DNA of 64,000 nucleotides. It comes from Aurantiochytrium sp. KH105. Its lineage: Eukaryota; Sar; Bigyra; Thraustochytrida; Thraustochytriidae. How positions within the stretch are numbered: position 1 is the stretch's first letter; each line of letters begins with the position of its first letter. A program made the position numbers and the translations under genes. The notes beneath the pieces are model-generated. The model did no database searches and was not told the DNA's origin. It was given only the letters and a program-made list of their open reading frames with translations. The stretch lies in contig BGKB01000027.1 of the NCBI GenBank assembly GCA_003116975.1, forward strand, positions 428,880 through 492,879, written 5' to 3'. This document shows positions 17,217-59,256 of this stretch, in pieces.

Positions 17217-17639
17217 ACCTGCCTCTGGCGCATACATAAAGAGGGCGGGCGAACGTGACGCGGTGCGGCGCAATGCACCTTTTAATTATTAATCCCAGAA
17301 CTGAGACTCTGACTTTTTTCCTACCTCCTTTCTTTGACCACATTAACTGGGCTCGTCCACTATCTTTTTCAACATTGAGAGCAGTGCATCTCTGCGTACG
17401 TCCGTTTTTGCATGACGAACAGACAATATCTTCCCACGTCGATTGCCTGAACGAAATCGCTTGGTTCAAGGACCACTTTGAAAATCGTTTCCGAGCGTTC
17501 ATTTGTTCAAAAGAGCTCTGCAAGAGAGTTCGATTTTTTGTTGGCCCGCGAGACGCAGAGTCTTTGCCCTTCGAGCCCCTATCGTTCTGCGTGTCGAAGC
17601 CTGCGATCTTGCAGCCTGTTTCTCAGCGCGACAAAAACG
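17217..17639. other. Intergenic region upstream of the ZRANB3-like gene
   Basis: The helicase frame stays open back to 17478 but has no ATG there, so this is probably promoter and 5' untranslated region. I see no other gene. Confidence 0.55.
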
Positions 17640-20600
17640 ATGACGGCTCGAGCGAGGCCTGCTTCTCAAGTAAGTGCCAGACGTAGAACCCTGTCACTCG
17701 ACGAAATGACGCAGATATCCCCTGCGTCCGCGGCGCCGCCGGCGCGCGGGCAGGGGGAGCAGACGCAAGCGCAGGCGCAGGCGCAGACGCAGGCACAGGC
17801 ACGGGCACAGGTGACCCCGTCGTGGTTCGAGGAGGTGGACTGGGCAGAGCTGGAGCGCAAGGCACTGCAGGATCGAGGAGCGCGGCCTAACCGTGAAGAC
17901 CGCGACGAAGAGCAGCAGCGCGCTGCGATCACTGGTCGGGAGAACGACGCAGACGAAGAAGAGGCTGGCGAGGCTCGGACCGCGCTAGACTCTCCCAAGA
18001 CGTCGATCGAGTCCCCGCTTATCAAGGAAGATTCGTCGCAAACGCCCGAGAAGAAGCCCGTGTGGTGGGCCGAGGGTCCTCCTGCCTCCAAACATGGCCC
18101 GGATTTCTTCAAGGCCTCCTCGATTCGATCCGTCGTGAGTGCCGTCCAAGACAGCCAGGAAAAGAGGTTGGCTCGCGCGACATCCACCGAGGTCGCACCA
18201 AAGCCATCAGGCGACTTGGAATCACACACGAGCCAAGATGAAAGACATCCGCTGTCTCCCATTCCATTCTCTTTCGATGTTCTGACACAGAGCTCTGCAG
18301 GCTCGAGTCAGCGACAGGGTGCACTCGGCTCGCAAGAAGATGAACGCACCAAAGTCAGAGAAAATGTCGGCTCGGACAAGCTGCAGAAATCGAGCTTGAG
18401 CAATGATAACGAGCGCACTTATAAGGACCAAATTCATGCCTCGGACCAACCTCACGCACCTCAAAACCAAGACAGCCGACCATCTTCGTCAAAACATGAA
18501 TTTATCCCACAACAGCAGCCCTCTTCGGGCCGTGAGCAGCCTCTGCATCGGCGGCAGCCGCAACAACAACAACAAAAACCACAACAAAAACCACAACAAA
18601 AACCACCACCACCACCACCACAACAACAACAACAACAACAACAAAAACAACAACAACAACAACAGCTTCAAAGTACCAAGCAAGAGAAAACCGAAGTCGT
18701 CCCACGACGCCTCAAGAGGCCTCGTGCGAGAAGTACTGAGTTTCGTATCGAGACGAAAGACCTACCCGCAACCGCGTGCTATCCACTCCGAGATTCGCCC
18801 ACAAAAGCGCGTCTTGAACGTGCGCGATCAGCGCTCTCACGATGGGTTGCGGTACAGCGACGCCGCGAAAGAGAAAGTCTTTCCCGGGTCCGAGTGGACG
18901 CGAAACGACATGTGAATGCAACAAGCGAAAGTGGTGTGGTCGCTCCTCAAGCAATTTCAAGAGTGTGCAATGTCCAGCCGCCTCAACGCACGAACCAACA
19001 AAGCGTCGATGAAGTGAGACCATCAAACACTAACGATAAAAGGACTACCAACGATGAGGTCAATTGCAGCGGCGCAAGGGAGCAACACAGCTCCCAGGAT
19101 TCAAGCAAGTCAAAGCAAGTAGCAACCGGGTCAGCCCAACCCCTCCCCAGAATGAACGCGCCAGATGCAGGTGCAGCAGGGTCGGGCAAATTGCTGCAAC
19201 TTCCGTCTCGCGCACCGCCCTGGGGATACACACTTGCCAACGCGCCGCGCACTCATCTCGAAAAGAAAAGAAGCGATCTCTCTCGCACAAGAAGCGAGCA
19301 ACGTGATTCCGCGAATCTCCGCACCTTGGCATCGAGCGCGGAGGTCGAGGGCGACGAATTCGAACGCTTCTGTCAGGACGGTCTGCGCATCACCGCCGCC
19401 GAAGGTCCTGAGGACAACCACCGATGCCTCAAGCGGCTCGTGAGCACCGGGACGAGGTTTCTCAAGACGTATCAACGAGCAGGAGTGCTACGTATGCTAA
19501 GTGGGCCTTCGCGCTGTCTGCTTTACGATGAGATGGGTCTCGGCAAGACCTTGCAGTCGCTCTTTTGCATGGCCTTCAGTTGCCTGCGCGACAGACGCTG
19601 GCCCGCACTCATTGTGTGTCCAGCTTCATTGCGCTCATCTTGGACTGAAGAGATCGAGCGCTGGATGCCTTTCTTGAGCATTGACGATGTTTCCGTGGTC
19701 ACAAACTGCCGCTCGGCCATCTCTGAAAATGCAAAAGTCATCATCATAAGTTATCGCATGCTCGAGGACCTAAGCAAAGAGGTCCTCGAGCGAGGCGTTC
19801 ACTTTCTGATTGCTGATGAAGTACACAAGACTCGCTCGTATGATTCTCTGCAAACCCGATCTCTAGCCCGAGTTGCCCAGAACGTAAGCCGTGCAATTCT
19901 TGCCACAGGAACGCCGATGCTGATTCGTCCCTTTGAACTCTACACACAGCTGAGCATCGTCTTGTCTGAAGAAGACAAGAATCGGGTCATGGCGCGATGG
20001 GGATGGCGCGCACAGACACGAAGCTCCGAACAAGCCTTTCTGCATGAGTCTCATCTCGCTCAAATTTTTGCACATCCGATGCGCCACCTGCGGGATATGT
20101 CATTTTTTGTGCAATTTGCAGAAGCAGCGTGGATGCAGCCGTGCTCTGTGGCATTCATGCACTCTCCTTCGGCAAGTGGAGCACGCTCATTTTGGGCAAA
20201 CATGGAGAGCACAGGTCGAAGTGATTTGTTGCGGCTGATGCAAACCTTCCTTGCCGATCTCGTGGCGATGGTGCGAGCCACCTTTCTAGGATCAAGCACC
20301 GCGTCAAAAACTACGTTTGGTCCCATTGTGCGCAAGCTTGAAAACATTGCAAGCGATCGACGTGCGAACGCTTCGCTTGAATCCATTCAACATCAGGACA
20401 CACGAGATCCGCAGAACCCTCCCAGCGCTGTTATTGCCCAGCTCAATCTCATGACCTCCTTTTGGCGTGTTTTGCGCTCCGCTTTCCCCACGAGCACCGA
20501 TTTTCTCGTTGCGCTAGTACACATGTGGGATGCGCATTGCTTTGGGATCATGTATTGCTCGGGCCGTAGACCCCCACATACAAAGCAAAGGTGGTCGAAA

Positions 20601-23540
20601 CGGCTGTGGCTATACGACGGCAGCAACAAGACGACACTGGCACAAATGCGGAACATCATGGAGCCTTACGTGACGCGTCGCCGCAAAGGGGACGTCTTGA
20701 AGGACCTTCCTGCGAAGCGTCGGCAAATCGTCTACGTTAACTCAAAATCTTCCTTGCACCACGCTGGGTCTGTGACACGTGGGGTCGAGACGACCCGCAC
20801 CACGGTCGCACCAAGCACGTCCGATTCCAAGTCGGCACCCGCGTCAAAATCTGCAACGTATGACGTTGCGCGTTTCAGCCAGGAACTCATGCGCGAGACA
20901 AGGGGCCAGGAAAGTCGAAGCCATGCAGGAGACCATCCCGCGACTGAAAGCGGGCCTGCAACTCTGCTGCCTAGCAGCACAATGATAGTGCCCGCATCCG
21001 TCGCAACCGGCTCACCGGTGCCTGATTCGCCGCGAGCAAAGCAACAGCGCAGCGAGCTGGCGGCTTGTGCTCTTTCTCAAGGCGTTGGGCAAGAGCAACT
21101 CGCTTGGGGCCTTCAATGTTTAGGTTCGGCTAAGGCGCCCTTCGTTGCAGATTACGCCATAGACCTCCTTCAGACTCTCGACAAGGAAGAACGAATCCTC
21201 ATTTTTGCGCGTCACCTCAAGGTGATTGATTGCATCCAATCCCGTCTTGTAGCAGCGCGTGGAAATGATCCTGGGCACCCTCGCTTCCAGCGCTTTCACA
21301 GCGAAACTCTCAGTGGCATAATCCCGGTGCCAGATCGAGACCGAATTATTCGAAGCTTCCAAACCGACGAGCAGCACGGGCCGCGTGCGCTCGTTCTTTC
21401 CATCGAGGCCATGGGCGTCGGTGTCACGTTGACACGTGCTTCGGTCGTGGTCATTGCGGAGTTGCACTGGTCTCCCCAGGTCCTCTTGCAGGCCGAAGAC
21501 AGGGCCCACCGCATTGGGCTCAAAGACTCGGTCTCTATCCAGTACGTTCTCGCAGAAGGAACGCTGGACGCCAAGCTCTGGGCCATGTTATCCACGCGTC
21601 TTAACATTATGGAGCACACTCTTCGCGATAAAGCTGGCAAGAAAAGTTCGTCGGTGAAACGTCGACGTCCTGCGAAGGACAAAAGCAAGCGAGGCCAGCA
21701 AGTGCGGGCACCTTTCGTGGTCGATAGCGAGTTTGGTCAAAGTGTTGCCGCCAAGGGCTTTATTCAACAACGGGAGAGACAGTCGCGCGAAGACGGCCTT
21801 TCTAAATGGCTCCAGGGCGGCGCCGCTGCCACGAGTCAAGCCCAAGATTTCAAGCAGCAATCAAGTAGCGCCATCCTCCCCCCAGCGACGAATATGCAAC
21901 AGCAGGTGCTCGGGCTCGCGTCGCAGGAAAGCAGCCGCACAAGCTACCCTGATGACCTTTCGCTTGGATTTCGCGTGTCTTCGACGGGTCGAGTCCATCT
22001 TTATTGGCTGTCCCAGCAACAAGAGGATCCTGGGGGAGCGTGTGAGGATTCGGCTCTCAAAGCGCCCACTCATTTCGAAGCTGCTGGATATAATTTTTCC
22101 ATTCCCGACTTGCGCGCGATGGCAGCTGCGTTTCTTGAGCAGGCAGATGCGCAAGAGGGCGCACAGGAGGGTAAAAGACGAGACGAAGCCAAATTGCTTT
22201 CTCGTCGTTTGCCCCGATTTATGCGAAAGCCGTCGTCACCCGCATTTCTCCAAGCAGAAGCTTTTGTGGAAGAATGGGTCTCCTTAGGCGTTGTCCTTCA
22301 AAACAGCCTCCAAAGTCTCAATCGCCCTTTAATTGTACCATTGGCCGAGGAATTGCGCCATAAGAGCGCTGCTGCGCATCGTGCTGCGGATAACGAAACA
22401 GTCTCGTTCGAGCGAGACTCCACACCTTCATTTCAGCTGCATCGCGCCGCGCTGCGGAGCCTTGGACCGGGCCGTTATGGAGTCGGTCTCGTCACTTTGA
22501 GGCAGAGAAACACGCATGACCGGAGTGGATTTACGAGCATATCGCGCCCCGTTCATCAGGCGTTTGAGGCGCAGAGCGGCAGTCCCCTCTGTCTCTACTG
22601 TGGCTGTACTTATCCGCAAGCAAGGCACCGCTTCGATCCAATCGAACTCGACGCATGTGCGCTTCGGGAAAAGGTCGCGCGCATGGAGGAAGATGGCGTG
22701 GCGAACCATTCCACTAGCGACAGCTCTGATGACGAGGACAATGCGAACGATGATGAAGAAGGAGTGAGCGATTGTGAAGATAATAGCCAGAAGGCCCCGA
22801 GAAGTGTAAAGCGCCCACGGTCGCCACCGTCTCGACCTCATGCTCGCGAGCAGCAGCACCTGACGGTTGAAGGTAATATGCGTAGCCTCTTTTGCGGAGC
22901 AGGCGCCCCGTGCCAGCGTTCGTGGCAAATGAAGTGCTTTCGCGCTGAAGCACGCGTCCGTCTGTCAGAAAGTGAGGCCGGAATCTGCCGCAGATGCAAA
23001 GTCGACACGCGCGCCATGTTTTATCGCGCGCGCGTGCACCCCCCGGGCTCCGAGGAGCGTTGCGACGCAATGTTCTGTGACACCGGCGACCTCTTGTGCA
23101 AGCACGTGTTTGCGCAACACCAGAACGCTAACACGAGGTCGCGCATGCATTGGACCGATCTTCAGCGCAAGGTTCTTGGGCCCACGCTGGAAAATAAGCT
23201 CTTGAATTCTGCGTCTCTTCAGGAGGGCTTCTTCTGGGATGCAGATCATATTCTCGCGGTACGTCTTGGCGGAGGCAGTACCTCGATTTCCAACTTCCAA
23301 ACGCTGTGCAAGCCTTGCCATCTTGCCAAGACACAAATGGACAGGGCTGCGATTAGCAGACTCAAACGAGATCAGGCGAAACATATGCAGCGCGCGACCG
23401 TTGCCATGAAGGAGCGCTTTTCTCGGCCAGGTGTCATCAATGTGGGCATCAAGCTCATCTGTGAGTGGTGTGGCTTTGAGTGTGCTTGCACGGAAGACCG
23501 CGTCATGCACGATATCATCTGTCCTCTCAAGCCTGACTAG
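17640..23540 (+). CDS. ZRANB3-like SNF2-family annealing helicase with HNH nuclease domain
   Basis: 1,966 residues from the first in-frame ATG (17640). The first ~560 residues are disordered, with Gln/Ala repeats and a CAA-coded poly-Gln/Pro tract (about 300-345). The SNF2 core starts near 620: motif I D-E-M-G-L-G-K-T (~630), motif II D-E-V-H (~725), motif III A-T-G-T-P. After a ~400-residue insert comes lobe 2 (E-R-I-L-I-F-A-R-H ~1184; Q-A-E-D-R-A-H-R-I-G ~1290). A C-L-Y-C zinc site lies near 1650. The C-terminal HNH domain has D-A-D-H-I-L-A-V, G-G-G, and L-C-K-P-C-H-L-A-K-T (~1866-1895), then a final C-x-x-C ... H ... C finger. SNF2 plus HNH in this order is the ZRANB3 plan, which remodels stalled replication forks. 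I do not see the NZF ubiquitin-binding finger of the animal protein. Confidence 0.88.
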   Translation: MTARARPASQVSARRRTLSLDEMTQISPASAAPPARGQGEQTQAQAQAQTQAQARAQVTPSWFEEVDWAELERKALQDRGARPNREDRDEEQQRAAITGRENDADEEEAGEARTALDSPKTSIESPLIKEDSSQTPEKKPVWWAEGPPASKHGPDFFKASSIRSVVSAVQDSQEKRLARATSTEVAPKPSGDLESHTSQDERHPLSPIPFSFDVLTQSSAGSSQRQGALGSQEDERTKVRENVGSDKLQKSSLSNDNERTYKDQIHASDQPHAPQNQDSRPSSSKHEFIPQQQPSSGREQPLHRRQPQQQQQKPQQKPQQKPPPPPPQQQQQQQQKQQQQQQLQSTKQEKTEVVPRRLKRPRARSTEFRIETKDLPATACYPLRDSPTKARLERARSALSRWVAVQRRRERESLSRVRVDAKRHVNATSESGVVAPQAISRVCNVQPPQRTNQQSVDEVRPSNTNDKRTTNDEVNCSGAREQHSSQDSSKSKQVATGSAQPLPRMNAPDAGAAGSGKLLQLPSRAPPWGYTLANAPRTHLEKKRSDLSRTRSEQRDSANLRTLASSAEVEGDEFERFCQDGLRITAAEGPEDNHRCLKRLVSTGTRFLKTYQRAGVLRMLSGPSRCLLYDEMGLGKTLQSLFCMAFSCLRDRRWPALIVCPASLRSSWTEEIERWMPFLSIDDVSVVTNCRSAISENAKVIIISYRMLEDLSKEVLERGVHFLIADEVHKTRSYDSLQTRSLARVAQNVSRAILATGTPMLIRPFELYTQLSIVLSEEDKNRVMARWGWRAQTRSSEQAFLHESHLAQIFAHPMRHLRDMSFFVQFAEAAWMQPCSVAFMHSPSASGARSFWANMESTGRSDLLRLMQTFLADLVAMVRATFLGSSTASKTTFGPIVRKLENIASDRRANASLESIQHQDTRDPQNPPSAVIAQLNLMTSFWRVLRSAFPTSTDFLVALVHMWDAHCFGIMYCSGRRPPHTKQRWSKRLWLYDGSNKTTLAQMRNIMEPYVTRRRKGDVLKDLPAKRRQIVYVNSKSSLHHAGSVTRGVETTRTTVAPSTSDSKSAPASKSATYDVARFSQELMRETRGQESRSHAGDHPATESGPATLLPSSTMIVPASVATGSPVPDSPRAKQQRSELAACALSQGVGQEQLAWGLQCLGSAKAPFVADYAIDLLQTLDKEERILIFARHLKVIDCIQSRLVAARGNDPGHPRFQRFHSETLSGIIPVPDRDRIIRSFQTDEQHGPRALVLSIEAMGVGVTLTRASVVVIAELHWSPQVLLQAEDRAHRIGLKDSVSIQYVLAEGTLDAKLWAMLSTRLNIMEHTLRDKAGKKSSSVKRRRPAKDKSKRGQQVRAPFVVDSEFGQSVAAKGFIQQRERQSREDGLSKWLQGGAAATSQAQDFKQQSSSAILPPATNMQQQVLGLASQESSRTSYPDDLSLGFRVSSTGRVHLYWLSQQQEDPGGACEDSALKAPTHFEAAGYNFSIPDLRAMAAAFLEQADAQEGAQEGKRRDEAKLLSRRLPRFMRKPSSPAFLQAEAFVEEWVSLGVVLQNSLQSLNRPLIVPLAEELRHKSAAAHRAADNETVSFERDSTPSFQLHRAALRSLGPGRYGVGLVTLRQRNTHDRSGFTSISRPVHQAFEAQSGSPLCLYCGCTYPQARHRFDPIELDACALREKVARMEEDGVANHSTSDSSDDEDNANDDEEGVSDCEDNSQKAPRSVKRPRSPPSRPHAREQQHLTVEGNMRSLFCGAGAPCQRSWQMKCFRAEARVRLSESEAGICRRCKVDTRAMFYRARVHPPGSEERCDAMFCDTGDLLCKHVFAQHQNANTRSRMHWTDLQRKVLGPTLENKLLNSASLQEGFFWDADHILAVRLGGGSTSISNFQTLCKPCHLAKTQMDRAAISRLKRDQAKHMQRATVAMKERFSRPGVINVGIKLICEWCGFECACTEDRVMHDIICPLKPD

Positions 23541-24539: not shown

Positions 24540-27500
24540 ATGTCAGAAGCCGAGGTCGTCGGGGTGTCGGCTGACGCGCGCACTGACGAAGTAAAGCACA
24601 ATGACTCCGATGAAACCGAGGCGCGCGGCGAAAATGAGCAAGTTACCTTCCCAATGAGACCAGGGAAGAAGCGCGTTCTTGTTCGTGGAAATAAAGCTGC
24701 TCAGCGAGACAACGATGCTTCTTCTGCTAACATCCGTGGCATGAAGGCGCAGCCGCTTCCATCGGCAAAACAACAGACAGTGACAGTCGAGTCGCCAACA
24801 GCAGGCCGTAAAAAGGTTTACGTGGCGAGATCTGTGGATATGGATGAGGTCGTGGTGAACACAAGTAATCAAACGCTTTCGCCCACCGGCCCCAATGCTG
24901 CATCCAAAAAGGTGTACGAGACGCCATTTGGAACGTGCACGGCGCCGCTGAGCACCTCAACAGCCCAGACTTCAGGTTTTGACCCTGCAGCAGGTCCTGG
25001 CACGGCTGCTGGCGGCCTTTCTTCGCGGACGTCAGGTAATAATTCGTCCTATAATGCCCCTTCAGGAAAAGCAGGCGCAATTCGATATGACGCGCAAGGC
25101 CAAGTGCTAGCATACTCCATTCTGGGTTCCGTGGAAGATTTTGCCCGACTCTCGAGGACATCTACGGCACATTCGTCCGGATCTTTGAGCAGATCCCCCT
25201 CGCGGCTTTCACGGCGCTCCTCCCGGCGCGCCAGCGCCCGATTCGAGCAAATGCGCATGAACAGAAGCCAAAGCATTCTTTCTCCAGGCTCAGCTGGGTT
25301 CGAAAGTCAGCTCAATGTCGACGCAGAGTCCGTTGCTGGCGGCCCATCCGTAGGCGACCCCGCATCATCGCCGCAAATTCCTCCCTCCTCGGTCGATCGC
25401 GAAGCATATCTCGAGCAGGTTCGACGTCTCGCGGCAGAGGAGACGCGTGTGCGCGCAGAGGCGAGCAGAGCTCGCGATGAGGCCCTGCGCAAGCGCAAGG
25501 AGGCCAGCATGCTCACGCATGAGCGACTACTTGCGCGGCGCCAAGAGCGCGCTCTTGCAGCGCACGCCGAGTGGCAGCGTGAATGGGCTCATTTCAAACA
25601 GACTATGTGCGCCCTCTCGGGAAAAGACCTGGATGATCTTGTCATCTCGCGGGCCGACTCATACCGCGAACGCATGGAAGAGTACAACTATATTAGCGCA
25701 GCCATTCCCCACCACGAAAAGCATGGGTCCGAGTACTGGAAAATGAGCCTTCGCGGGCTCGGGACCCGCTATGTCGCGGTGGGAAACATCTTTAGTGGTC
25801 TTTTCTGCCCAGTCAACGAATCCTCCAAGAATGAGATGCAAATGGTACGGATTCCACGATTGCACAAAAACTCTCAGCTTGCACGGCGCGGGATCGATAA
25901 ACCTTCATGGCGCGATTCCCCGATTTTGCAGCGCCGCCAGCGAAACCTCGCCGGAGAATTGCGCAAGTTGCGTCCGCATCTGCTCACTGACGAGGACGCA
26001 GATGCTCTTGTTTTGCGTGGCGAGCCTTTGCTAGAGTGGGCTTATGTCAGCATGGAGGTCGACGCTTTGGACGAAGCCGAGCAGCTTCAGGGTAAAGCGG
26101 CTGCACGTTCGCATGATGAGCTGCTGCAGGACCAAAACGAAGCCGAGGAAGAGGGCCTTATCGAAAAATCCCTTTCTTCTGCGTTAGTATTCTCCTCGCG
26201 GGAGGATACACCTCGGGTTGGGCCTCAGTGCGAGCTGCTTGGCGCTTCCGCTGTTCAGGCTCTAGGTGTTAGTTCGCCCAAGAGCTCGCGGCACGGTCAC
26301 GAGGAAAGTACTCAGGCGAGCTGGGCCATTTCCTTTGCTACCGTCGGAGTCGAGGTCAGCACGCACGTGATCCATTTGCATAACACCGGGTCCACTGCTC
26401 TCTTTTTCCGGTGGACCACACAGGATGTTCAACCTGCGGCGGCAGACAATTCAAGCAACGTTTTCTATTGCTCTGCGCCAGATGGAGTTGTCCTGCCAGA
26501 CTGCAAGCAAGAAATTGTCTTTAGCTTTGCGAGCACCCGGGCTGGTGCTTGGAAACAGGTCTGGACGTTGGATACTACGCCGACTGCCCATGCGAGCACA
26601 GGACTTTCTGTGGAACTACGTGCAGTGTGCGACCTTGTTGACGACACCCGCACGCAGAGGTTCGCAGCGCTCGATCAGCTCGTCTTGCAAGGCGAAAAGC
26701 ATGAATCCTCCGTCTCTGACATGATTGTCCAGAAAGACGCTGCAGAAGCGCAGAGAATTGCTGAAGAGGATCCCGAGTACGGTCTCTCCGCCGAAGCTCT
26801 TCTTGAGCTTCGACGCAAACGTTTTGAGACAGCAAACCGTGCGCTTGGGCTCTACTACCATCCAGCGCTCGAAGGTGAGATTCTCGAGCTTGCCCGCTCC
26901 ATCTTTTCGAAAGTACATGCGTATGACATGGTCTTTGACCCTGCGCATCGTGACGCAGAGATTGATGCCAAAGTTGACGTCGCGCTTCAAGCATGGAAGC
27001 GCACTCCATCTCTTGTCGCGTTGCGGGTCGCAGTGGCGAGCATTGCGCGCGGGGATCCCCTCCGACCCCGCTGCCGAGCTCCAACTATTATCGATGAAAT
27101 TGCTCGCGAGTCTGAACAGAACGAGCTTTCAAGCGTCGTCGATGATGCGGACGAAACTGGCGAGAAAGAGGGTGGCAGCGGCGAAGAGGAAGGGGAAGGG
27201 GAAGTCCCTGAGAATGCGAGCTCGATTTCCATGATCGAAGATAATGAGCGGCTCGTTGACGCGCACAGCGAGATCCCAGACGATGCAAAGCTCGAACACG
27301 ATAGCAAGCAAACTTTCGGCGAAGATACCGTGGACGGGGATGGTGAGGCGCCCAACGAACAAGTTGCGACAGATGGGATCGGCGAGGACCGCGGACTCGC
27401 TCCGACGACTGATGACGTCGCGGACGATGCTGCAAGTGATGCCACGGAAGATGCTGAAGACGTCGAGTATGTAGCTCGAGAGTACGAGCGACTGAACCGC

Positions 27501-29840
27501 GAGGCTGATGCATTCGTGAGTGGCATACAGACTCTTGGAGAACGCATGGTGCGCCCCCCGCTTGTCCAAAATGCATCATGGGCTCGTGGTAGAGAAGCCA
27601 TCTTTCGCATGGCAGATTCTGTGGTGGATCTCGTGGACACCTGGCGGGAAGAGCACCCTGACGAATCGACGGGCGGTGCAGAATCGGCACGAGGCAGCGA
27701 AGGTGAGAATGAAATTGATCCCATGGAGACCTTACATGGTCGCGCTGCGCACGCTGTGGGCGAAACAATTGACGCGTTCATGCAGGGGGTGGACAGCGAT
27801 GCAGCGGCTTCTCGTCTAATTGCGCTTCAAGACATGGTTGCAAGTGTATCGCTCGACAACTTCAAGCTATGCTCTCGGCTCGACCAGGCCGGCGACCTCT
27901 TCGCTGGCGTTCGGGTTCTTCTAACCGCAGACCTGGCGGTGCGGGCAAGCGAGGGTGACACAAACGTCCCAGACGAAATCGATATCGACTGCAAACTCAA
28001 GTCTATTTGCAAAACTGTGGAGTGGCTCGTGCATGCCGGCTGTGCCAGCGTCCTCATCGCAGACGGGTCATCACGCGTGCAAGACACGCAAGCCGTGTAT
28101 AGCAGCGTTGCAGAAGAGCTTGGTACGCGGCTTGGGCGCGAAGTAGTCTTCATATCCGATCTTACTGATGAAGATGCAAAGGATGCACTTGGTCTGATGC
28201 CCCAGAATGATGGCGACGAAGGCGAAGGCGAAGATGCGGACGACGACGACCAAAGTGATGGTAGTGCGACGGACGAAGACGAAGATCAGGACGAAAAGAG
28301 TAGTGAACGAGGATCTTCTCCTCGAGGCTCAGAAAATGGTTCTGAGAAGGTGGGACTGGGCGCGGACTCGGATGGTAATGCGAACGCGAACGCTCCGCCG
28401 CGAGCTCGAGTCGAGCCGGACGACGTCGCTGTTCTATGCCTTGACGCCCGTCCGAGTATTAGTCGCACGGGGGATCTTGCGGCAGTTCTCGCAACATATG
28501 CAGAAGTCGTTGTACATGACTCCCTTTACAGCATGCAGACCTACGTTGCCACCAACACTGATGAGGTTTTGCTCGAGCACTTTGGCGGATTCGGAGTCGA
28601 GTTAGATGCTCAGGAAAGCGCAGGAGCTTTAAAGGCCAAATCAATCCTTGTGATCGGAGGCGAACCGAATATGTACCCGAAGGGGCAGGGTCCTCAAAAG
28701 GAAGCTGAGGTGGACGGTGATAATGACAGGGACAGTGGCAGTGAGGATGAAGATGAGGACGAGGACGAGGATGATGAAAATGAGGACGAGCAAGTGGAAG
28801 AAGAGGGATCGGAGGAAGAAGCCGTCGCTGGCAAAGATTCGCCAAGAGAAGGACAAGAAGCAGATGACGATGATAATGCGAGTGTCGAGTCGGAATCAAG
28901 CGCAGGCTCGAGCTCAGGATCGGAGTCTAGTTCTGATGGAAGTATATCTGAGCCTGAGATCGACCCTTCCCAAGCTGGATTCATGCGGGATCTTGCTGTC
29001 TTGGAAGGCGCGATCCGCAGTGGCAATGCTTCCGCAGTGCTCATTGTGGGTCCACTCGCTAGTCTCTTTGAAAGAGCCGTCGCGGAGCTTGGGGCTGCGG
29101 CGAAAGCACGGCTTCTTTTGATTTCTCAAGGGGATCAGGCTGAGCTCGTCATTCCCGAAGAAAGTCAACTCATTTGCTCGCCGCTGAGCGCAGAAGGGAA
29201 GACGGTTGCTGCTCGAGAGCTGGAATGGGCTCGCACTCTTCTCGAGCAGGCGAGACTGCGTCGAGTCATGATCAAGGTCTTCTCCCGTGCCGATGCGAGA
29301 ACGACTCGCCAAGAGCTGACAACTTTTGTTCAGCGTACAGATGCTGAGAGCCCGGTGCTCTTTTTGAACGCAGTTCCCGAAGAATACGCAACGAGGCTTC
29401 TCTTGCGACAGTTTGGCAAAGCCGGGAACGAAGTCGTTGCGTATGCGCCTCAAGTATGGACTCAACTTGATACTCTCAAGTCAGGAGCGCACGAAGACGA
29501 CAGTCTCGAAGAAGAGATGGATGAAGAAGACCGAGCGATGCTCGAGGATAATGCGGAGGCTGAGGAAGATGAGGATGAGGAAGATGCTGGCAACGAAGAC
29601 AGCGAGACCGCAAACAAGGACACAAGCAAGACGGATGCGCCTCCTGCAGGAGGAGACGGCCAAAGCAACGAGGAGGATGAGGATCCTTATCGTCTTCAAG
29701 ACGTCAAGGTAATGACCTGGGGCTCCACCGTCCGCCAACTTCTCTCGTTGCAGAGTGTTGAGATCCCACAAGGTCTTCGGAACCCGGTCAAGTCCCCGAA
29801 GGAGCTGCGGAGCTTGAAACAGATGGTCTTACTCAGCTAG
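24540..29840 (+). CDS. MYCBPAP-like axonemal protein with a degenerate phosphoglycerate-kinase-like region
   Basis: 1,766 residues. Residues ~1-250 are Ser/Thr-rich. About 285-470 contains a charged helix and the conserved H-A-E-W-Q-R-E-W ... G-L-G-T-R-Y-V-A-V-G-N-I-F-S-G-L-F block, and about 600-700 an ASH/MSP-like beta domain (V-I-H-L-H-N-T-G-S-T-A-L-F-F-R-W). These match MYCBP-associated protein, found in sperm and motile-cilium axonemes. After an acidic linker and a second helical part, residues ~1100-1640 resemble phosphoglycerate kinase: A-G-V-R-V-L-L-T-A-D-L-A, then T-V-E-W-L-V-H-A-G-C-A-S-V-L-I, a D-A-R-P strand, and A-G-F-M-R-D-L-A-V-L-E-G-A-I. Two Asp/Glu-rich inserts interrupt it. 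Several PGK substrate residues look replaced, so a structural role is more likely than catalysis. Confidence 0.82.
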   Translation: MSEAEVVGVSADARTDEVKHNDSDETEARGENEQVTFPMRPGKKRVLVRGNKAAQRDNDASSANIRGMKAQPLPSAKQQTVTVESPTAGRKKVYVARSVDMDEVVVNTSNQTLSPTGPNAASKKVYETPFGTCTAPLSTSTAQTSGFDPAAGPGTAAGGLSSRTSGNNSSYNAPSGKAGAIRYDAQGQVLAYSILGSVEDFARLSRTSTAHSSGSLSRSPSRLSRRSSRRASARFEQMRMNRSQSILSPGSAGFESQLNVDAESVAGGPSVGDPASSPQIPPSSVDREAYLEQVRRLAAEETRVRAEASRARDEALRKRKEASMLTHERLLARRQERALAAHAEWQREWAHFKQTMCALSGKDLDDLVISRADSYRERMEEYNYISAAIPHHEKHGSEYWKMSLRGLGTRYVAVGNIFSGLFCPVNESSKNEMQMVRIPRLHKNSQLARRGIDKPSWRDSPILQRRQRNLAGELRKLRPHLLTDEDADALVLRGEPLLEWAYVSMEVDALDEAEQLQGKAAARSHDELLQDQNEAEEEGLIEKSLSSALVFSSREDTPRVGPQCELLGASAVQALGVSSPKSSRHGHEESTQASWAISFATVGVEVSTHVIHLHNTGSTALFFRWTTQDVQPAAADNSSNVFYCSAPDGVVLPDCKQEIVFSFASTRAGAWKQVWTLDTTPTAHASTGLSVELRAVCDLVDDTRTQRFAALDQLVLQGEKHESSVSDMIVQKDAAEAQRIAEEDPEYGLSAEALLELRRKRFETANRALGLYYHPALEGEILELARSIFSKVHAYDMVFDPAHRDAEIDAKVDVALQAWKRTPSLVALRVAVASIARGDPLRPRCRAPTIIDEIARESEQNELSSVVDDADETGEKEGGSGEEEGEGEVPENASSISMIEDNERLVDAHSEIPDDAKLEHDSKQTFGEDTVDGDGEAPNEQVATDGIGEDRGLAPTTDDVADDAASDATEDAEDVEYVAREYERLNREADAFVSGIQTLGERMVRPPLVQNASWARGREAIFRMADSVVDLVDTWREEHPDESTGGAESARGSEGENEIDPMETLHGRAAHAVGETIDAFMQGVDSDAAASRLIALQDMVASVSLDNFKLCSRLDQAGDLFAGVRVLLTADLAVRASEGDTNVPDEIDIDCKLKSICKTVEWLVHAGCASVLIADGSSRVQDTQAVYSSVAEELGTRLGREVVFISDLTDEDAKDALGLMPQNDGDEGEGEDADDDDQSDGSATDEDEDQDEKSSERGSSPRGSENGSEKVGLGADSDGNANANAPPRARVEPDDVAVLCLDARPSISRTGDLAAVLATYAEVVVHDSLYSMQTYVATNTDEVLLEHFGGFGVELDAQESAGALKAKSILVIGGEPNMYPKGQGPQKEAEVDGDNDRDSGSEDEDEDEDEDDENEDEQVEEEGSEEEAVAGKDSPREGQEADDDDNASVESESSAGSSSGSESSSDGSISEPEIDPSQAGFMRDLAVLEGAIRSGNASAVLIVGPLASLFERAVAELGAAAKARLLLISQGDQAELVIPEESQLICSPLSAEGKTVAARELEWARTLLEQARLRRVMIKVFSRADARTTRQELTTFVQRTDAESPVLFLNAVPEEYATRLLLRQFGKAGNEVVAYAPQVWTQLDTLKSGAHEDDSLEEEMDEEDRAMLEDNAEAEEDEDEEDAGNEDSETANKDTSKTDAPPAGGDGQSNEEDEDPYRLQDVKVMTWGSTVRQLLSLQSVEIPQGLRNPVKSPKELRSLKQMVLLS

Positions 29841-30495: not shown

Positions 30496-30545
30496 GGCAG
30501 TGGCAGCCTGCAGCTGCCTGCCTGAATGGGTAGGTGGGTGGGTGG

Positions 30546-30570
30546 NNNNNNNNNNNNNNNNNNNNNNNNN
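30546..30570. other. Assembly gap (25 N)
   Basis: 25 ambiguous bases, a scaffold join or unresolved repeat. The true length is unknown. Confidence 0.99.
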
Positions 30571-31454: not shown

Positions 31455-34400
31455 ATGTCCACAGACTTGCCAGACGGAAGCGAGCCGCAATTGCCGTCGC
31501 TCGAAGAGCCAACCAAAATCGCCATTGCACTCGAGGCGTCCGAAGAATCGAAGGTAGATGCTGCTCGCATAGAGAGAAATGGTGATTCTGAAGCCACAGA
31601 CATTGCTGTCGCGGAAGAAGGCAAAGCGGACGACACAGAGCTGGCTGCAGAGACTGCCGCGAACAAAGGAGTTCAAGAAGAGCACACATCAGAGGAAAAA
31701 CCAGACACTAATCCGCAAGTGCCCGAGGAGACAATTTCTTCTGGCGAAACAACAAATGATCTAAGCCCCCAGGCAACGTCCGCACTACCGCTGCCAGGCG
31801 AGAATGCAGCCAGTGCCGCGGAACAATCCACAATCTCCAAACAATCCTCGAAGGGAGGTTCGTTTGCGATCAGTGCCCAAACTTCCTTTGAAAACCTCAA
31901 GCTGATCGCGAGCCTCGTCCCGGCTCGAGTGATCCGATATCATCTGGAGCACAAGGATGTATCTACGCTGCAAGCCTTTTCAGAGGAGTTTGAGGGCGCT
32001 GTTCTCTTTGCGGATATTTCCGGATTCTCGAGCTTGGCAGAAAAGCTTGCGAAAGATTTGAACTGCGCGGCAAACGCAGCAGAGAACCTCTCGTCTTACA
32101 TTGGTAAATCTCTTGAGAAAATGGTACACGAAGTGTGCTCCAAAGGTGGAGACGTAATCAAGTTCGCGGGTGATGCCATCTTGACTGTCTTTCCCGCAAG
32201 CAAATTTCGCGACCTAAACGATGCCACATTGTGCTGCATTCAGGTCGCCATGAATCTCCTCCAGCTCGATCTCAAGGCAGGTGGAGTGCAGCTTTCCATA
32301 CACTGCGGCGTGGGTGCAGGCAGCGTCGTGAGCTATCACGTTGGTGGACGGTTCAATCGCTGGGAATATGTAATTACAGGAGATCCGATCGAACAAATTG
32401 GTTCTGCGGAACCGGAGGCGTCTGCAGGTGAAGTCGTTATCGCCAAGTCGGCGTACGAGCGCATCGCCTCGGAACTGATTGGCAAGGCCCTTCCGAGTGG
32501 AAATTTTCGCATTGACAAACTCAGAAATCCTCTCGAGCCCGTTTCGCACCCGTTTGTGACATCAGAGCTGGAATGTCTACTTCAAGAGCCGACGCAGTTG
32601 CTTCGCATGGACGAGTGTTTGCGAAGCTACGTTCCGCGTCCTGTTCTGCAGGCTATCGATGCGGGACAGAGCTTGTGGTTCTCTGAGTTGCGGCTTTGTT
32701 CGACTTTATTTTGTCGCCTCAAGGGACTCAAGTTCAACAGTCGAGAGAACCTGGATCTTATTCATCGGGCGGTTCGCCTCGTCCAAAAGAACGTTTACGC
32801 CTACGAAGGAACTTTGTGCAGATTTATCGTCGACGACAAGGGTGCAGGGCTACTCCTTGCATTCGGTCTCCCTCCATTCATGCACGAGAACGACCCGGTG
32901 CGCGCAACGAGGTCAGCACTCGATATATGCGCAGCTCTTTCAGATCTTGTCAATAATGATGAAGAAGCGTTGAGCGCGTCTATCGGCGTCACGAGTGGGC
33001 GCGTCTTTTGTGGGACAACGGGCGGGGGAGTTCGATGCGAATACACCCTGCACGGAACGCTCGTGAATCTCGCGGCGCGGTACATGGTTGCCGCCAAGAC
33101 CGGCGTGCTCTGTGGGCAAACCACATACCGTGAAGCGTGCGAAGCGATCGAATTTGGCGAGCCGGAGAAGCTCAAAGTCAAAGGTAAGGAAGAGGAAGTA
33201 CTCGTGTACCGACCTATTGGTCCGAAGGCACAGCAAGGATTCGAAAATGCCAAGTCGCCTCTTTTGGGCAGGACTGCGGAGATGGAAATCGTCTCTGAAG
33301 CCCTGCAGCGCATCTCGCAGCACAGCCTTCTCTCAGAGGTCGTCCTCTTCACGGGCGAGGCCGGTATCGGCAAGTCGAGACTCATGCAGGAAACGTATGC
33401 GGAGGCATTGAAGTTTGATTGCGGCGTGATCGTGGGAAAAGGACAGGACACCGAGAGTGCTACCGCCTTTTATGTGTTTCGCAGTATTTTATCGCAACTG
33501 GTGAATCATTACTTCACCAAAGTTGTCTGGTATCGGTTCGAAGTTTGGCAGGAAATTGTACGCCAGAGTCAAGTGCAAGGTGTTGCATCCGCATTCTCAG
33601 AGAACTTTGCACAGTCACTGTATACCAAGTACCTGTCCAAGTCGTTTTTCGAGCGCCTCGAGGAAGCGTGCCGGCCGCAGGTCGACTCTTCCACGGACGC
33701 AGTTGGTGGCCAGGCCTCCTCGCCCTCATACAGTGCGGCAGGGGCCGGAAACACCAACATACAGTCTGGGCACATGGGTGGGCCTCAGGCCCAGCGACAC
33801 CGGGGCGTGAGCAGCAGCGTTGGAGACGATCTTGGAGGCGATCATTCCACAGACTTTCTCAAGTATATGGGACTGATGGAAAACCCGATATCGAGCGATT
33901 TTGGCGCGTCTCCAGAGCCTTCAAAGCGAACTATCCCGCCTTTGGAGTCTCTGCCTGACCATCTTCGACTCCACGTGGTTCGCGATATGATCCCGGTGGG
34001 CAAGGATAACCTCGAAGAAATGTATCCGCTTCTGAGCATCCTGATTCCCAAGGTGGTTCAGGGTTCTGACACGGAGACGACGGCAAAGATGCGAAACGAT
34101 ATTCGAGCGGAGAACCGTATGCGGCTCATCAAAGAGATCTTTACTAAGTGCGCCGCCGAGCTCGAGTCTCTTCATGAGCTGCAGCGCATCGTGGAGGCGC
34201 AGGCGGAGCGGCGGCTAAAGGCTCTGAGCCGCTTGGGTGTGAATATCGATCCTGCTCCTCGGCAAGACCACGTACATGGGTCTTCTCAGAACATGAGTTT
34301 TCGTGGAGCATCAACGAGCGGAAGCGAGGAAACAGGGTTGAGAGCCAAGCGTCGAGGTAAAAGCAAGGAATCCTCGAGCGGGGCGGAGGACGAACACTCG

Positions 34401-37139
34401 ACAGCCTCGCTGGCCATGGTCGACGAGCACCAAGCGAGCCCTCTTCCAGAGGCCACATCCCCGGGATCAGCGGGCTCACGTCAGCAATCTTCGATCGTCG
34501 CGCATCGAAGCAGCTACCGGATGCGCATGGGAAGTGGCCGAGAATCCAGGCAGTCGCATCGCATTGTTCTCATGGTGGAAGACCTTCAGTTCGTTGACCC
34601 ATTGTCGCTGCAGTTATTACAAGAAATCGCGATGGAAACCAGGCCTTTGCTTGTCTTCTTTTCCCTCCGCTTTCTCGCGCAAATTGAAGATAGCTTGCTC
34701 CTTGACGCCTATACACACATCGAAGTAGGCAGCCTATCACGCGAAGAGGTCAGAGAGGGCATGTGCAAGTGGCTCGAGGTCAAAGATGTTCCAGACAAGG
34801 CGCTGAGCGCGGTGATGGTCAAATCTTTGGGACACCCGCTCTTCTCCGAGGAGCTCACCAAGCTTATGGTCGCAGAAGGCATGATTCTCATCGACGGAGA
34901 TACGGCGCGTCTGTCCAAAAAGGCGCAGGAAGGAACAATTGGGCTTCCAGACACGGTTTCGGCGCTCATGACAAGCAAATTAGACCGGCTCAAGCCTTCC
35001 CAGCAGCTCGTTCTCAAGGTGGCTGCAGTGATTGGTACCGAATTTCAAAGGAACGAACTCGCAGCACTCATGCCAAAGACAGGAAACGAGGTCGTGGAGG
35101 GCTCGCAAAAGCGCCGCAACGAAGATCACGACTCATTGTCCGATGATGTCTCTGCGCTCGTCGCTCAGAATTTGTTGATCCGCAATCCACACATGATGTA
35201 CCATTATCGATTCACAAGCGCAATGTTGCGGGAGAGTGCGTACAACCTTTTGCTGTACCAGAACCGAAAAGACCTGCACAAAAAACTCGCCGAGTATCAG
35301 GAAGCGCGCAACAAGGACTACCTGGAGCCAGTTTACTTCCTGCTAGCGACCAACTACTTTCTTGCAGAGGAATACGAAAAGGCGCTCCACTACTCGGAGC
35401 TAGCAGGGAAGAATGCCCTAGAAGCCCATGCCCTGCAGCAAGTCTTTGTCTGTTTCTCGCGACTCATTGAAATGGACCAGCGCGAGCCAACCGTAACAGA
35501 AGGCATTCCCTTGTCTCGCAAGATTGGGTGGAAGCGCAAGGTGGGAGAAGCCCTATTTTTTATGGGCAAACCAGTCGATGCGGAAGAGTATCTCTTGTCA
35601 GCTCTCGAGGATGCTAACTTGCAATCGAGCACACCGACGACGCAAGGTTCCTCGTGCTTTGGCGGCGTAAGTCGAAGTTCGAAGCTTCACCTTGTCAAAT
35701 TCACGCCAGGGTTTGCCGAAATGGAACGAGAAAAGAATGTACAGCTCTTGCTTGAAGCCTCGGCTGCCTACGAGCTTCTGGCCAAGATGAACTTTGATCG
35801 AAGCTTGCCTTCGTCTCTAGAGTATCGTTTGAATGCCATCGACACGGCCAAGACTGCGGAGAGCGCATTGCGAGAGACGCAGGGGAACGAAGATCTGCTC
35901 GAGATTGCAACAGGGCGCATTGCGCGCACCTCGGCATATGTCGCCGTGTTTTACGTATGTATCGGAGCGCCAGGCATGCGTGACATGGCGCGCGAGCACA
36001 TGCACCGAGCGCTGCTTCTCGTCGACACCTCGGACAAGGTAAAGGATCCCGGAACGCAGGCGCTGGTTCGTTTCAAGAGCGCCAAGTTTTCTACCATGAT
36101 GGGCGAGATGAAGCAGGCGGGCGATCGCGTGCGCAAAGCCCTGTGGATGTGCAACTTTTTGAATCTGGAGCGCCTGCTACTCGAAAGCCAGACGCTTTCG
36201 CTCTCGATTCAACTCTTCACGGGCCAAGTTTCCAAGGCCAAGGCAACGCTCAAGGCGTCAGTGGTGAAAATGTCGCAGGCCGGGCCCAATTATGTCGTTC
36301 TTGCGCTCACCGCACGGACAGCGTGTCTGGTTGGCGACTTTGAGCTCGCAGAGAGCTGTCTGGAGCGCATCGGACGTATGCCGCCCGGCAACTTCAACCT
36401 AAATCACCTTGAGGCGACGCGACAACTTATGAAATCTCCTGATCCAGAGGTGCACATTGCACTTGCGCTTCTTCTCGCGCGCAAGTATGGCACCCAGAAC
36501 CTCGCTGTCAGCGCGGCCATGCGAGGCATCGAAGCTTTGCAGAGCGTCAACCTCAGTGACCTCAACATCACCATGTTCCACACCACGGCCTTTCTCATCA
36601 CTGCGCTGGCAGAGGGTCTCGGTGGCACTCCGCTATTGAAGAGTCGAAAGCGAATCTTGCACGGCAAGCATCAAGGTCGGTACAGCCCTCACATGAGCCT
36701 ATCGCAGATTATTCCATTTGAAGATCTCGAGATCACGGTTCCTGTGCGAACCATTCGAAAGCAAGCAGGGAAGCACCTCAAGCATGTACTCGCAATCCTC
36801 AAGAGTTACGCCAAGGTATATTCGATTTGCCGCGCGCATGCGACATACTGCAACGGGGTCTACCAGAAGATATTGCGTGGCAAGTCGCGTTCGACGACGC
36901 TTAAAACCTTTTTACAAGCTGCCAGAGAGGCGCAGGAGACCGAGTCCCACTACGTTCTGGGCCTCGCTCTACTCGAGGCAGGCTTGATTGACAAGCAATA
37001 TCTCGAGGGCGCGCGCGCCGCATTTTTGGTTTGCGCCGGTATAAAAAAAGACAACAAGGCAGGTTTCACACCTGAACAGCTCAAGGAAGCGCCCTATGAG
37101 CTTCGACTGATGAATGAGGATGTTCTGGCCAACGAATGA
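31455..37139 (+). CDS. Soluble-type adenylyl cyclase (ADCY10-like)
   Basis: 1,894 residues in one exon. After a ~130-residue acidic leader comes the first class III cyclase domain. It has the metal-binding Asp in F-A-D-I-S-G-F (~186) and K-F-A-G-D-A (~236), so both metal ligands are kept. The second domain (~440-580) ends with E-Y-T-L-H-G-T-L-V-N-L-A-A-R, retaining the family Thr, Asn and Arg. A P-loop G-E-A-G-I-G-K-S (~633) opens an STAND-like ATPase with a ~300-residue Ser/Gly-rich insert, then a Walker-B-like L-M-V-E-D-L-Q (~1038). TPR-like helices continue to the end. This is the full sAC plan (animal ~1,600 residues), which makes cAMP in response to bicarbonate and often serves flagella. 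Bicarbonate control here is inferred. Confidence 0.93.
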   Translation: MSTDLPDGSEPQLPSLEEPTKIAIALEASEESKVDAARIERNGDSEATDIAVAEEGKADDTELAAETAANKGVQEEHTSEEKPDTNPQVPEETISSGETTNDLSPQATSALPLPGENAASAAEQSTISKQSSKGGSFAISAQTSFENLKLIASLVPARVIRYHLEHKDVSTLQAFSEEFEGAVLFADISGFSSLAEKLAKDLNCAANAAENLSSYIGKSLEKMVHEVCSKGGDVIKFAGDAILTVFPASKFRDLNDATLCCIQVAMNLLQLDLKAGGVQLSIHCGVGAGSVVSYHVGGRFNRWEYVITGDPIEQIGSAEPEASAGEVVIAKSAYERIASELIGKALPSGNFRIDKLRNPLEPVSHPFVTSELECLLQEPTQLLRMDECLRSYVPRPVLQAIDAGQSLWFSELRLCSTLFCRLKGLKFNSRENLDLIHRAVRLVQKNVYAYEGTLCRFIVDDKGAGLLLAFGLPPFMHENDPVRATRSALDICAALSDLVNNDEEALSASIGVTSGRVFCGTTGGGVRCEYTLHGTLVNLAARYMVAAKTGVLCGQTTYREACEAIEFGEPEKLKVKGKEEEVLVYRPIGPKAQQGFENAKSPLLGRTAEMEIVSEALQRISQHSLLSEVVLFTGEAGIGKSRLMQETYAEALKFDCGVIVGKGQDTESATAFYVFRSILSQLVNHYFTKVVWYRFEVWQEIVRQSQVQGVASAFSENFAQSLYTKYLSKSFFERLEEACRPQVDSSTDAVGGQASSPSYSAAGAGNTNIQSGHMGGPQAQRHRGVSSSVGDDLGGDHSTDFLKYMGLMENPISSDFGASPEPSKRTIPPLESLPDHLRLHVVRDMIPVGKDNLEEMYPLLSILIPKVVQGSDTETTAKMRNDIRAENRMRLIKEIFTKCAAELESLHELQRIVEAQAERRLKALSRLGVNIDPAPRQDHVHGSSQNMSFRGASTSGSEETGLRAKRRGKSKESSSGAEDEHSTASLAMVDEHQASPLPEATSPGSAGSRQQSSIVAHRSSYRMRMGSGRESRQSHRIVLMVEDLQFVDPLSLQLLQEIAMETRPLLVFFSLRFLAQIEDSLLLDAYTHIEVGSLSREEVREGMCKWLEVKDVPDKALSAVMVKSLGHPLFSEELTKLMVAEGMILIDGDTARLSKKAQEGTIGLPDTVSALMTSKLDRLKPSQQLVLKVAAVIGTEFQRNELAALMPKTGNEVVEGSQKRRNEDHDSLSDDVSALVAQNLLIRNPHMMYHYRFTSAMLRESAYNLLLYQNRKDLHKKLAEYQEARNKDYLEPVYFLLATNYFLAEEYEKALHYSELAGKNALEAHALQQVFVCFSRLIEMDQREPTVTEGIPLSRKIGWKRKVGEALFFMGKPVDAEEYLLSALEDANLQSSTPTTQGSSCFGGVSRSSKLHLVKFTPGFAEMEREKNVQLLLEASAAYELLAKMNFDRSLPSSLEYRLNAIDTAKTAESALRETQGNEDLLEIATGRIARTSAYVAVFYVCIGAPGMRDMAREHMHRALLLVDTSDKVKDPGTQALVRFKSAKFSTMMGEMKQAGDRVRKALWMCNFLNLERLLLESQTLSLSIQLFTGQVSKAKATLKASVVKMSQAGPNYVVLALTARTACLVGDFELAESCLERIGRMPPGNFNLNHLEATRQLMKSPDPEVHIALALLLARKYGTQNLAVSAAMRGIEALQSVNLSDLNITMFHTTAFLITALAEGLGGTPLLKSRKRILHGKHQGRYSPHMSLSQIIPFEDLEITVPVRTIRKQAGKHLKHVLAILKSYAKVYSICRAHATYCNGVYQKILRGKSRSTTLKTFLQAAREAQETESHYVLGLALLEAGLIDKQYLEGARAAFLVCAGIKKDNKAGFTPEQLKEAPYELRLMNEDVLANE

Positions 37140-58100: not shown

Positions 58101-59256
58101 GCAGCGTGCTCTCGATGAGGGCCATCGGGATCTCGTTCGCCTTGGCGGGGAGTTGGAACGTCATTTGTGCTCGCGTGCGCGCAGATCCGAGGCAAAGGCA
58201 GCCGCCGAGGCCGAGGCCAAGGGGAGTTTGATATCTGCGCAGGCGAACGAGCAAGCCGAGGCCGCGCGTCGTGAGCTGGCCGAGGTCATGGACAGCTCGC
58301 AGCGTGCACTAGCGGATCGGGACGAGATGTTGAGAAAGCAGAATCAGCGTCTCGCTGAGACACAGTCAAAGCTTGACGCCCTCGCTGTGTCCTTGGCAGC
58401 GAAAGAAGCCGCTTTGGATAAAGCAGAGCAAAGCCTTCGGGACGCGCAGGTCCAGATGCAAGCAGAAAGACGGGAGACGCAAAGCGCACAGGGACGCGTC
58501 GAGGCCCGGGATGCGCGTCTGGCCGAGCTGACGCAGCGTCTCGACCGCGCGCAAGGCGGTTTCGCGAGTGTTGTTGCTACGTTGCGCGCAGAAGTCGGTT
58601 TCTCGAACGAGCTTGCCGACGATCTCCTTGACGAAGAACGACGCGTGAAGATCGGGGTGCCGGCACTTGTGTCTGCAATTCGTGATGCACAGACTGCCGC
58701 GTGCATGGGCGCAAGTGCAAATGAGAGTCTTGCCTCGCAGTTGCAGTCTGCCCGTCGCGAAGTCGATTCGCTCCAGCAGGAAGTGCAAAAGGCTCGTAGC
58801 GCGCTCGAGACCGAATCGGAACAGCATCAGGATGCGATATCTCGACTTTCTCGAGCGCATCAGGAAGCTCGCGAGGAGCTTCAGCGGGGGATTGAACGTG
58901 CCAAGAGCGACCAGGTGGAACTCCGTGCTCGTCTGCAGCAAGAGCGGCTGACGAATAAGTCGTTGCGAGAGCAGCTGACGTCTGCTCCGCTTCCCCCGCC
59001 TCGCTTTGCGCCGGCGCCTCCCACGTCTCCAACGCACTCTTTGCGCTCTGGGGTCTCCACCGCAGCTCGATCGTTTGGAGACGTGCAGCGATTGCTGGAG
59101 CGGTCTGCGGTGATTGATCGCAAGGCGCGCTCGCTGATGATGTCGAGGTCCTCCGCCTCGGTCTCCTCCACCATGTTCACGTCTTCTTCCTCATCTAAGA
59201 CAGGTCATGCATCGCCACGGTCCGTGTCTTCGCGGTTCACACACGTCTTGCAATAA
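55153..59256 (+). CDS. Giant coiled-coil protein, family not recognised
   Basis: 1,367 residues. Residues 1-90 are disordered (Arg/Ser/Thr-rich with a poly-Thr). From ~95 a compact helical segment (A-F-R-E-R-Y-A-T-L-K-R-I-Y-Q-R-R-L-E-E-L) opens a long alpha-helix that continues to ~1290 with heptads rich in Ala, Glu, Gln, Arg and Leu. It is interrupted by a Gly/Asp-rich hinge near 270-330. The tail (~1290-1367) is Ser/Pro-rich. No head domain, kinase, ATPase or zinc finger is visible. The composition is like centrosomal, Golgi or flagellar scaffold proteins, but coiled coils give misleading similarity, so I assign no function. Its length and lack of stops over 4.1 kb make it a certain gene. 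Confidence 0.85.
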   Translation: MRSGGFSVVENDANALSDLDRRRQGMRHVDASGKRPVGARRSHHDGDDDEEEAKSSCASSAPMGTHGRRRRTSSTAASTTTTTTTMRVVPSENVNAGEIAFRERYATLKRIYQRRLEELTRCARDVQVLVQTDPVLQNMKSEATTAPFAPARAMEIANEALEAEREAHIDQLAEDLSLASGEVSRLRAQLAQREAALVDARSESGRSETLARRQFHELSEAERATRQRMGALEADLAKVRDARKREHRAMRQALRRLRHALFRSALPPGGADFLNASNMENFAPSAAGFANGADASVLLEFTSGDPDGSMGDTLDILDELEGEGESGGEGNGGARLVQALNKLTHLHERTKSTTSSRSRQESESRAREVKMLRDKLSEATQAIKGLEARLQAEAGRHAGLQAETRVAREALARSEEERLELRQQYLALGSKLQAVAASTRAESAQEEENRRARAREAEDARQAVCAANEKLQRELEEAAALAAKRDRRIEELEAKLDQAQSAARHEVDTLRQTLAQQVENERSKRKQVQERLEETKLEHAARLQDAREQMAAAIQGAQAERSKWEGEKERQVREHQQQAEAQFQRLLDAKQKELEHVLQAQRSEVERQHDEAERVERAVTARLHAIVKDHISLEQHEQILASQVANARAEVEHRMQDALSRSERTRERALSEVEDRASRVHAAAADAMDQENNLLKTQLAQLQREHQDLESAFEADRRAAVALRKEAEDAKKARQTHASQLRQALHNIARLREVATTERERRVAAERACAEVRKGARAEVTTELDVARAEIASLQMRALEAERARTNLESSLREENRQLEARSAEAASEAALRIAALEAERERTLGEALASATADKEKQLVAAKHEFDLFRLQADAQRKQLESQIASLETSRASLEAAAAQVSGNAQALDARAVAASHEIESLRTALHRAQQEAEEARSRAQALETRLASIKRQQRTERLKVGKAVDSCRDLRAAIKPVGREVQRALDEGHRDLVRLGGELERHLCSRARRSEAKAAAEAEAKGSLISAQANEQAEAARRELAEVMDSSQRALADRDEMLRKQNQRLAETQSKLDALAVSLAAKEAALDKAEQSLRDAQVQMQAERRETQSAQGRVEARDARLAELTQRLDRAQGGFASVVATLRAEVGFSNELADDLLDEERRVKIGVPALVSAIRDAQTAACMGASANESLASQLQSARREVDSLQQEVQKARSALETESEQHQDAISRLSRAHQEAREELQRGIERAKSDQVELRARLQQERLTNKSLREQLTSAPLPPPRFAPAPPTSPTHSLRSGVSTAARSFGDVQRLLERSAVIDRKARSLMMSRSSASVSSTMFTSSSSSKTGHASPRSVSSRFTHVLQ

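Follow-up and report, generated by a model that had tools for sequence, protein, structure and literature searches.

In Chlamydomonas, FAP147 is described as the rachis protein of C2a, one of the projections of the central apparatus (PMC9113940), and mouse MYCBPAP is likewise reported as a C2a protein (PMC13345628). A 2020 review (PMC7729029) describes two proteins that carry phosphoglycerate kinase (PGK) sequence, the Tetrahymena thermophila protein TTHERM_00856750, which combines a MYCBPAP-related sequence with a PGK domain, and the PGKL of trypanosomatids (T. brucei Tb927.11.2380), which is PGK-like, probably inactive and in tight association with the axoneme. Here we analyzed a window of 64,000 nucleotides from Aurantiochytrium sp. 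KH105 (contig BGKB01000027.1, positions 428,880 to 492,879, forward strand), in which a single open reading frame (ORF) encodes a MYCBPAP/FAP147 homologue with a PGK-like C-terminus (Table 1). The reading that we favour, and consider reasonably probable, is that this gene joins a MYCBPAP/FAP147 homologue to a decayed PGK-derived C-terminus, which would form a non-catalytic acidic module on C2a.

The first-pass annotation of this DNA had proposed a degenerate PGK module fused to a MYCBPAP-like axonemal scaffold, and both parts were indeed found in one reading frame. The Pfam scan returned a PF14646 match with an E-value of 1.8e-33 and 116.6 bits against a curated cut-off of 24.5, and when the region 25542-26700 was compared with the PDB, the nearest solved chains were Chlamydomonas FAP147 (7n61_0I, E 1.7e-12) and mouse MYCBPAP (9ijj_v, E 7.4e-9). 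Two longer queries, searched with E up to 1 and up to 10 respectively, retrieved the mouse chain among their matches and not FAP147. Whole-genome searches were run on the 76-Mb genome around the window (367 contigs), where the best PF14646 matches were the two copies of the ORF, with 121.5 and 120.8 bits. Six further matches scored 14.5-24.1 bits alone, and four of them exceeded the cut-off together with in-frame neighbours (24.5-40.5 bits); L103, the one of the six that was scanned, showed Ig/ASH domains of the CFAP65/DLEC1 type. By these sequence criteria, the ORF is a member of the MYCBPAP/FAP147 family, and by analogy with FAP147 its product would be placed in C2a.

The relationship of the C-terminal part to PGK was evaluated by profile searches, which returned PGK as a match. 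When the query was limited to the C-terminal 665 residues, the best Pfam match was PGK (PF00162), with an E-value of 2.8e-4 and 20.4 bits against a cut-off of 27 bits, and it was the second match after MYCBPAP when the whole ORF was used as query (E 0.0013). The best NCBIfam match of the same residues was a PGK/TIM model (E 5.9e-4, 18.1 bits, the cut-off of 883 bits being that of the full-length model). In the PDB search with the region 27843-28697, PGKs were the first four of the six sequences retrieved (E 0.009-0.031), while with a longer query an acidic tract of TFIIA came first (E 0.026) and the PGKs stood behind it at 0.03-0.34. An hhalign comparison with one PGK template returned a probability of 92.7 and an E-value of 4.4e-7; in global mode the alignment with PGK was of no use. 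A whole-genome search with PF00162 (E up to 10) matched nothing other than the four copies of ordinary PGKs and both copies of the ORF. Another search of the genome gave five weak matches at other places (L016-L020, E 0.04-1.4), four overlapping acidic insert 2 in the query range and a fifth, L020, in the range of the PGK N-domain, with two internal stops. In viral contigs, a scan based on the PGK-like part produced 600 pattern matches but no relative, a weak test because four of the six patterns were drawn from acidic stretches.

Profile scores were controlled with 1000 shuffles, 300 block shuffles and 125 decoy pieces. The PGK N-domain profile scored 19.7 bits on the ORF, a value reached by none of the shuffles (860 scored, maximum 7.2) and by none of the decoy pieces (maximum 3.4). 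Despite the Pfam score below the cut-off, the homology of segment 1 to the PGK N-domain is thus clear against these controls. No decoy attained the 4.6 bits of the hinge part, whereas 3 of 1000 shuffles and 86 of 300 block shuffles did, and the PGK relationship of segment 2, collinear with that of segment 1, is weak. The C-domain profile gave -1.4 bits, which was equalled by 144 shuffles, 237 block shuffles and 28 decoys, and nothing significant emerged for this domain by profile, hhalign, a custom aligner or sliding blocks. The order of PGK elements that the first-pass annotation had read along the C-terminal third was therefore supported for the N-domain and, weakly, for the hinge, and was not borne out for the elements from A-G-F-M-R-D onwards.

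These results leave some room, although clearly less than for a module derived from both PGK domains, for the explanation that the N-domain alone was captured or kept and that the C-terminal segment is something else. Besides the C-domain score, this explanation is favoured by the best Pfam match of the segment at the place of the C-domain, an unrelated family (E 0.022). However, once the acidic inserts are removed, the part beginning at the G-G-A-K-like strand still has 250 residues, compared with 210 positions in the C-domain profile, and the top-scoring offset of the hinge block falls on the diagonal of the N-domain. Moreover, the block of core residues 305-328 scores best at a helix of the PGK C-domain (E 0.31 by hhalign), with a register that is ambiguous because the blocks of core residues 249-257 also match that helix region. 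We still prefer a module derived from the whole of PGK, for which an intact two-domain fold may be supposed.

The N-domain and hinge were then aligned with 84 PGKs, with which the ORF shares 19 to 26% identity. Of 41 near-invariant columns (97% or more), 10 are retained. The residues binding the triose substrate (Asp23, Asn25, His62, Arg65, Arg122 and Arg170) were taken from PMC7729029 and placed in columns by motif. Asp23 is kept, Asn25 is replaced by Ala, His62 by Asp and Arg170, in the lost H-R-A-H motif, by Thr, in agreement with the earlier suggestion that most substrate residues had been lost and the Asn replaced. Arg122 is kept in the 84-PGK alignment, and the residue at the H-L-G-R site (Arg65) depends on the alignment, being Ser in the 84-PGK alignment and Arg in the profile alignment. 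The Lys of G-G-A-K, the sole position of the nucleotide site that could be aligned, is Pro. An active phosphoglycerate kinase was rejected on the loss of Asn25, His62 and Arg170. Since Asn25, His62 and H-R-A-H are lost, the module is probably an inactive pseudoenzyme. Two PGK genes of the ordinary kind, both present as a pair of copies, lie elsewhere in the genome and can supply catalysis.

An inactive module might still bind a ligand (3-phosphoglycerate, inorganic anions or an adenine nucleotide) and thereby sense metabolites on the central apparatus. The retention of Asp23, and of Arg122 and the H-L-G-R arginine in one alignment each, would suit such a function, as would the anion binding by a basic patch mentioned for one PGK in PMC7729029. 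The losses at His62, Asn25, H-R-A-H and the G-G-A-K lysine speak against it, together with the acidic character of both N-domain pieces (net charge -9 and -8), and we regard this explanation as improbable. In particular, the adenine-nucleotide sensor put forward in the first-pass annotation found no support, the G-G-A-K lysine being Pro and the rest of the C-domain not alignable.

The acidic inserts that the same annotation had seen interrupting the loops of the PGK-like module were confirmed, three in number (Table 1). Charge was calculated from the counts of D, E, K and R, and the module showed a net value of -96, compared with -10 for an ordinary PGK of the same genome; the three inserts, which probably lie in surface loops, account for -82 of the total. 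According to the favoured reading, a PGK-derived module would have lost most of its substrate-binding residues and gained these inserts, and it would most likely act without catalysis, as a structural module that is exposed on the C2a arm and carries a strong negative charge. Such a module could be a binding site for partners or modulate the electrostatic contact of the central apparatus with the radial spoke heads. C1b and C2a are described as predominantly negative, which is said to support an electrostatic repulsion with the negative radial spoke heads (PMC12297659), and a C2a rachis made more negative would be in keeping with this repulsion model.

A second copy of the ORF, 96% identical and also in one open frame, occurs on contig C32 (G000:C32:393662-399120). 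The two copies are likely haplotypes, as are those of both PGK gene pairs. A single-base difference towards the 3' end of the ORF (29750-29840, L006) puts the last codons of the two copies in different frames. The ratio of nonsynonymous to synonymous substitution rates (dN/dS) between the copies was 0.092 for the MYCBPAP part. The PGK-like core, whose 376 codons contain 12 nonsynonymous and 30 synonymous changes, gave 0.124 (0.058-0.222 by bootstrap), with values of 0.104, 0.104 and 0.149 for the three core pieces. The two halves of the linker gave 0.39 and 0.60 and the three acidic inserts 0.54, 0.18 and 0, the latter with few changes. Core and linker differed significantly (p 0.005 in a Fisher test with linker counts of 20 and 12 after rounding down), and no difference was detected between core and inserts (p 0.25, insert counts 8 and 10). 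The PGK-like core is under purifying selection. A core dN/dS of 0.12, together with the retention of the ORF in the second copy, indicates that the PGK-like module is not junk, and the low values show that the pieces which the inserts separate are maintained as protein, and this applies to the unrecognised C-terminal piece as well.

Two further explanations appear very unlikely. The resemblance to PGK might reflect chance or a generic Rossmann-like alpha/beta fold instead of PGK ancestry, as the Pfam score under the curated cut-off and the modest PDB E-values of 0.009-0.03 could suggest; yet three libraries place PGK at the top for the C-terminal part or the first half of it, no shuffle or decoy reached the N-domain score, PF00162 found nothing in the genome besides ordinary PGK copies and the two ORF copies, and a Tetrahymena protein is described in which these two parts are likewise fused. 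Alternatively, the MYCBPAP and PGK-like parts might belong to separate transcripts, or an in-frame intron might remove the PGK-like part, an arrangement with which the less constrained linker would agree and against which stands a frame of 1766 codons without a stop, continuous in both copies.

The coordinates of the ORF and its parts are listed in Table 1. The motifs quoted in the first-pass annotation are all in frame within this one ORF, while its range of 27843..29470 was slightly short, as the ORF extends to the position given in the table. Neither of the outcomes named there as a refutation turned up at the DNA level, since PGK profile matches were obtained and the frame runs through both parts in each copy.

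Table 1. Parts of the MYCBPAP/FAP147-like ORF, in positions of the window
Feature	Position	Strand	Remarks
Whole ORF, ATG to TAG	24540..29840	+	1766 codons, 191 kDa, isoelectric point 4.5; MYCBPAP/FAP147 homologue with PGK-like C-terminus
MYCBPAP domain (PF14646)	25539..26681	+	Pfam E 1.8e-33; matches to FAP147 and mouse MYCBPAP
Linker from MYCBPAP part to PGK-like part	27180..27899	+	acidic, net charge -43, less constrained
PGK N-domain-like segment 1	27900..28205	+	profile positions ~7-99; dN/dS 0.10
Acidic insert 1	28206..28403	+	66 aa, net charge -18
PGK-like segment 2, to hinge and G-G-A-K strand (here G-G-E-P)	28404..28697	+	weak, collinear; dN/dS 0.10
Acidic insert 2	28698..28961	+	88 aa, net charge -36
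Segment at the place of the PGK C-domain	28962..29489	+	probably globular; score not significant; dN/dS 0.15
Acidic insert 3	29490..29681	+	64 aa, net charge -28
Short C-terminal segment	29682..29840	+	final codons frame-shifted relative to the second copy (one-base difference)

Downstream of the ORF, a short stretch at about 30540-30570 reads as X in the translations, its bases being unknown or withheld. The next large ORF on the same strand (31455-37139, plus strand) contains an AAA domain besides two stretches of adenylate/guanylate cyclase, with TPR matches that are weak, and by its sequence it resembles a soluble adenylyl cyclase, presumably of the ADCY10 type; soluble adenylyl cyclases of this kind often occur in flagella. 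The upstream ORF (17451-23540, plus strand) encodes a SNF2-type helicase with an HNH endonuclease domain at the C-terminus, which we take to resemble ZRANB3. Further along the plus strand lie a TPR protein with an RPAP3_C domain (46449-48356), a type known among dynein preassembly factors, and an ORF of 1367 residues (55153-59256) with no Pfam match at 1e-4.

Finally, the locus was compared with the known systems. The statement in the first-pass annotation that no such fusion had been described proved wrong in view of the Tetrahymena protein in PMC7729029. As in the present ORF, both parts occur there in one protein and the organism has a separate canonical PGK; however, the Tetrahymena protein is presented as a PGK enzyme that may moonlight in conjugation, and the passages of the review concerned with it make no link to FAP147 or the central apparatus and mention neither the order of its domains, nor its catalytic residues, nor any inserts, the two proteins being compared here by description only. 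Within the open-licence literature, no paper was found that pairs FAP147 with phosphoglycerate kinase or uses the phrase "phosphoglycerate kinase domain" along with axonemal terms, the phrase "phosphoglycerate kinase-like domain" yielded no paper, and PMC4427456, which mentions Tetrahymena, the central apparatus and phosphoglycerate kinase, contains no MYCBP term. MYCBPAP and phosphoglycerate kinase were named together in two papers, PMC7729029 being one of them. Since a MYCBPAP-PGK fusion and a dead axonemal PGK are already known, the novelty lies in a decayed, acidic MYCBPAP-PGK variant; the link to the C2a rachis protein FAP147, the decay and the acidic inserts are new here.

FAP147 (976 aa) and mouse MYCBPAP (932 aa) resemble the ORF in the alignable MYCBPAP region and have about 420 and 410 residues beyond the aligned part, respectively, compared with about 1050 in the ORF. 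Given this shorter length, both probably lack a PGK part, and the PGK-like part did not match either chain in the PDB searches (E up to 1 in one and up to 10 in the other). Enzymes or enzyme folds are also described in other projections of the central apparatus, namely the adenylate kinase domain of CPC1/SPEF2, the adenylate-kinase-like domain of HYDIN and the enolase of Chlamydomonas C1b, the last being a parallel for a glycolytic enzyme on a projection. They differ from the present case in that other enzymes and other projections are involved and decay is not among the features described for them. More speculatively, and with rather less confidence than we place in the favoured reading, the fusion may be ancient, dating at least to the split between ciliates and this lineage, and an ATP-making glycolytic enzyme once present on C2a may have been turned here into a dead, highly charged module contacting the radial spokes. 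If the present interpretation is right, what has been classed in Tetrahymena as a glycolytic multidomain enzyme and what algae and mammals have as a structural rachis protein may be forms of a single molecule, and it would become testable what glycolytic enzymes do in the central apparatus. As for the trypanosomatid PGKL, it is similarly PGK-derived, predicted inactive and axonemal according to PMC7729029, but its PGK domain is N-terminal and is followed by cyclic-nucleotide-binding and HTH-like domains, with no MYCBPAP part mentioned in the description consulted; the present module would be a second probably dead PGK kept in the axoneme, after PGKL.
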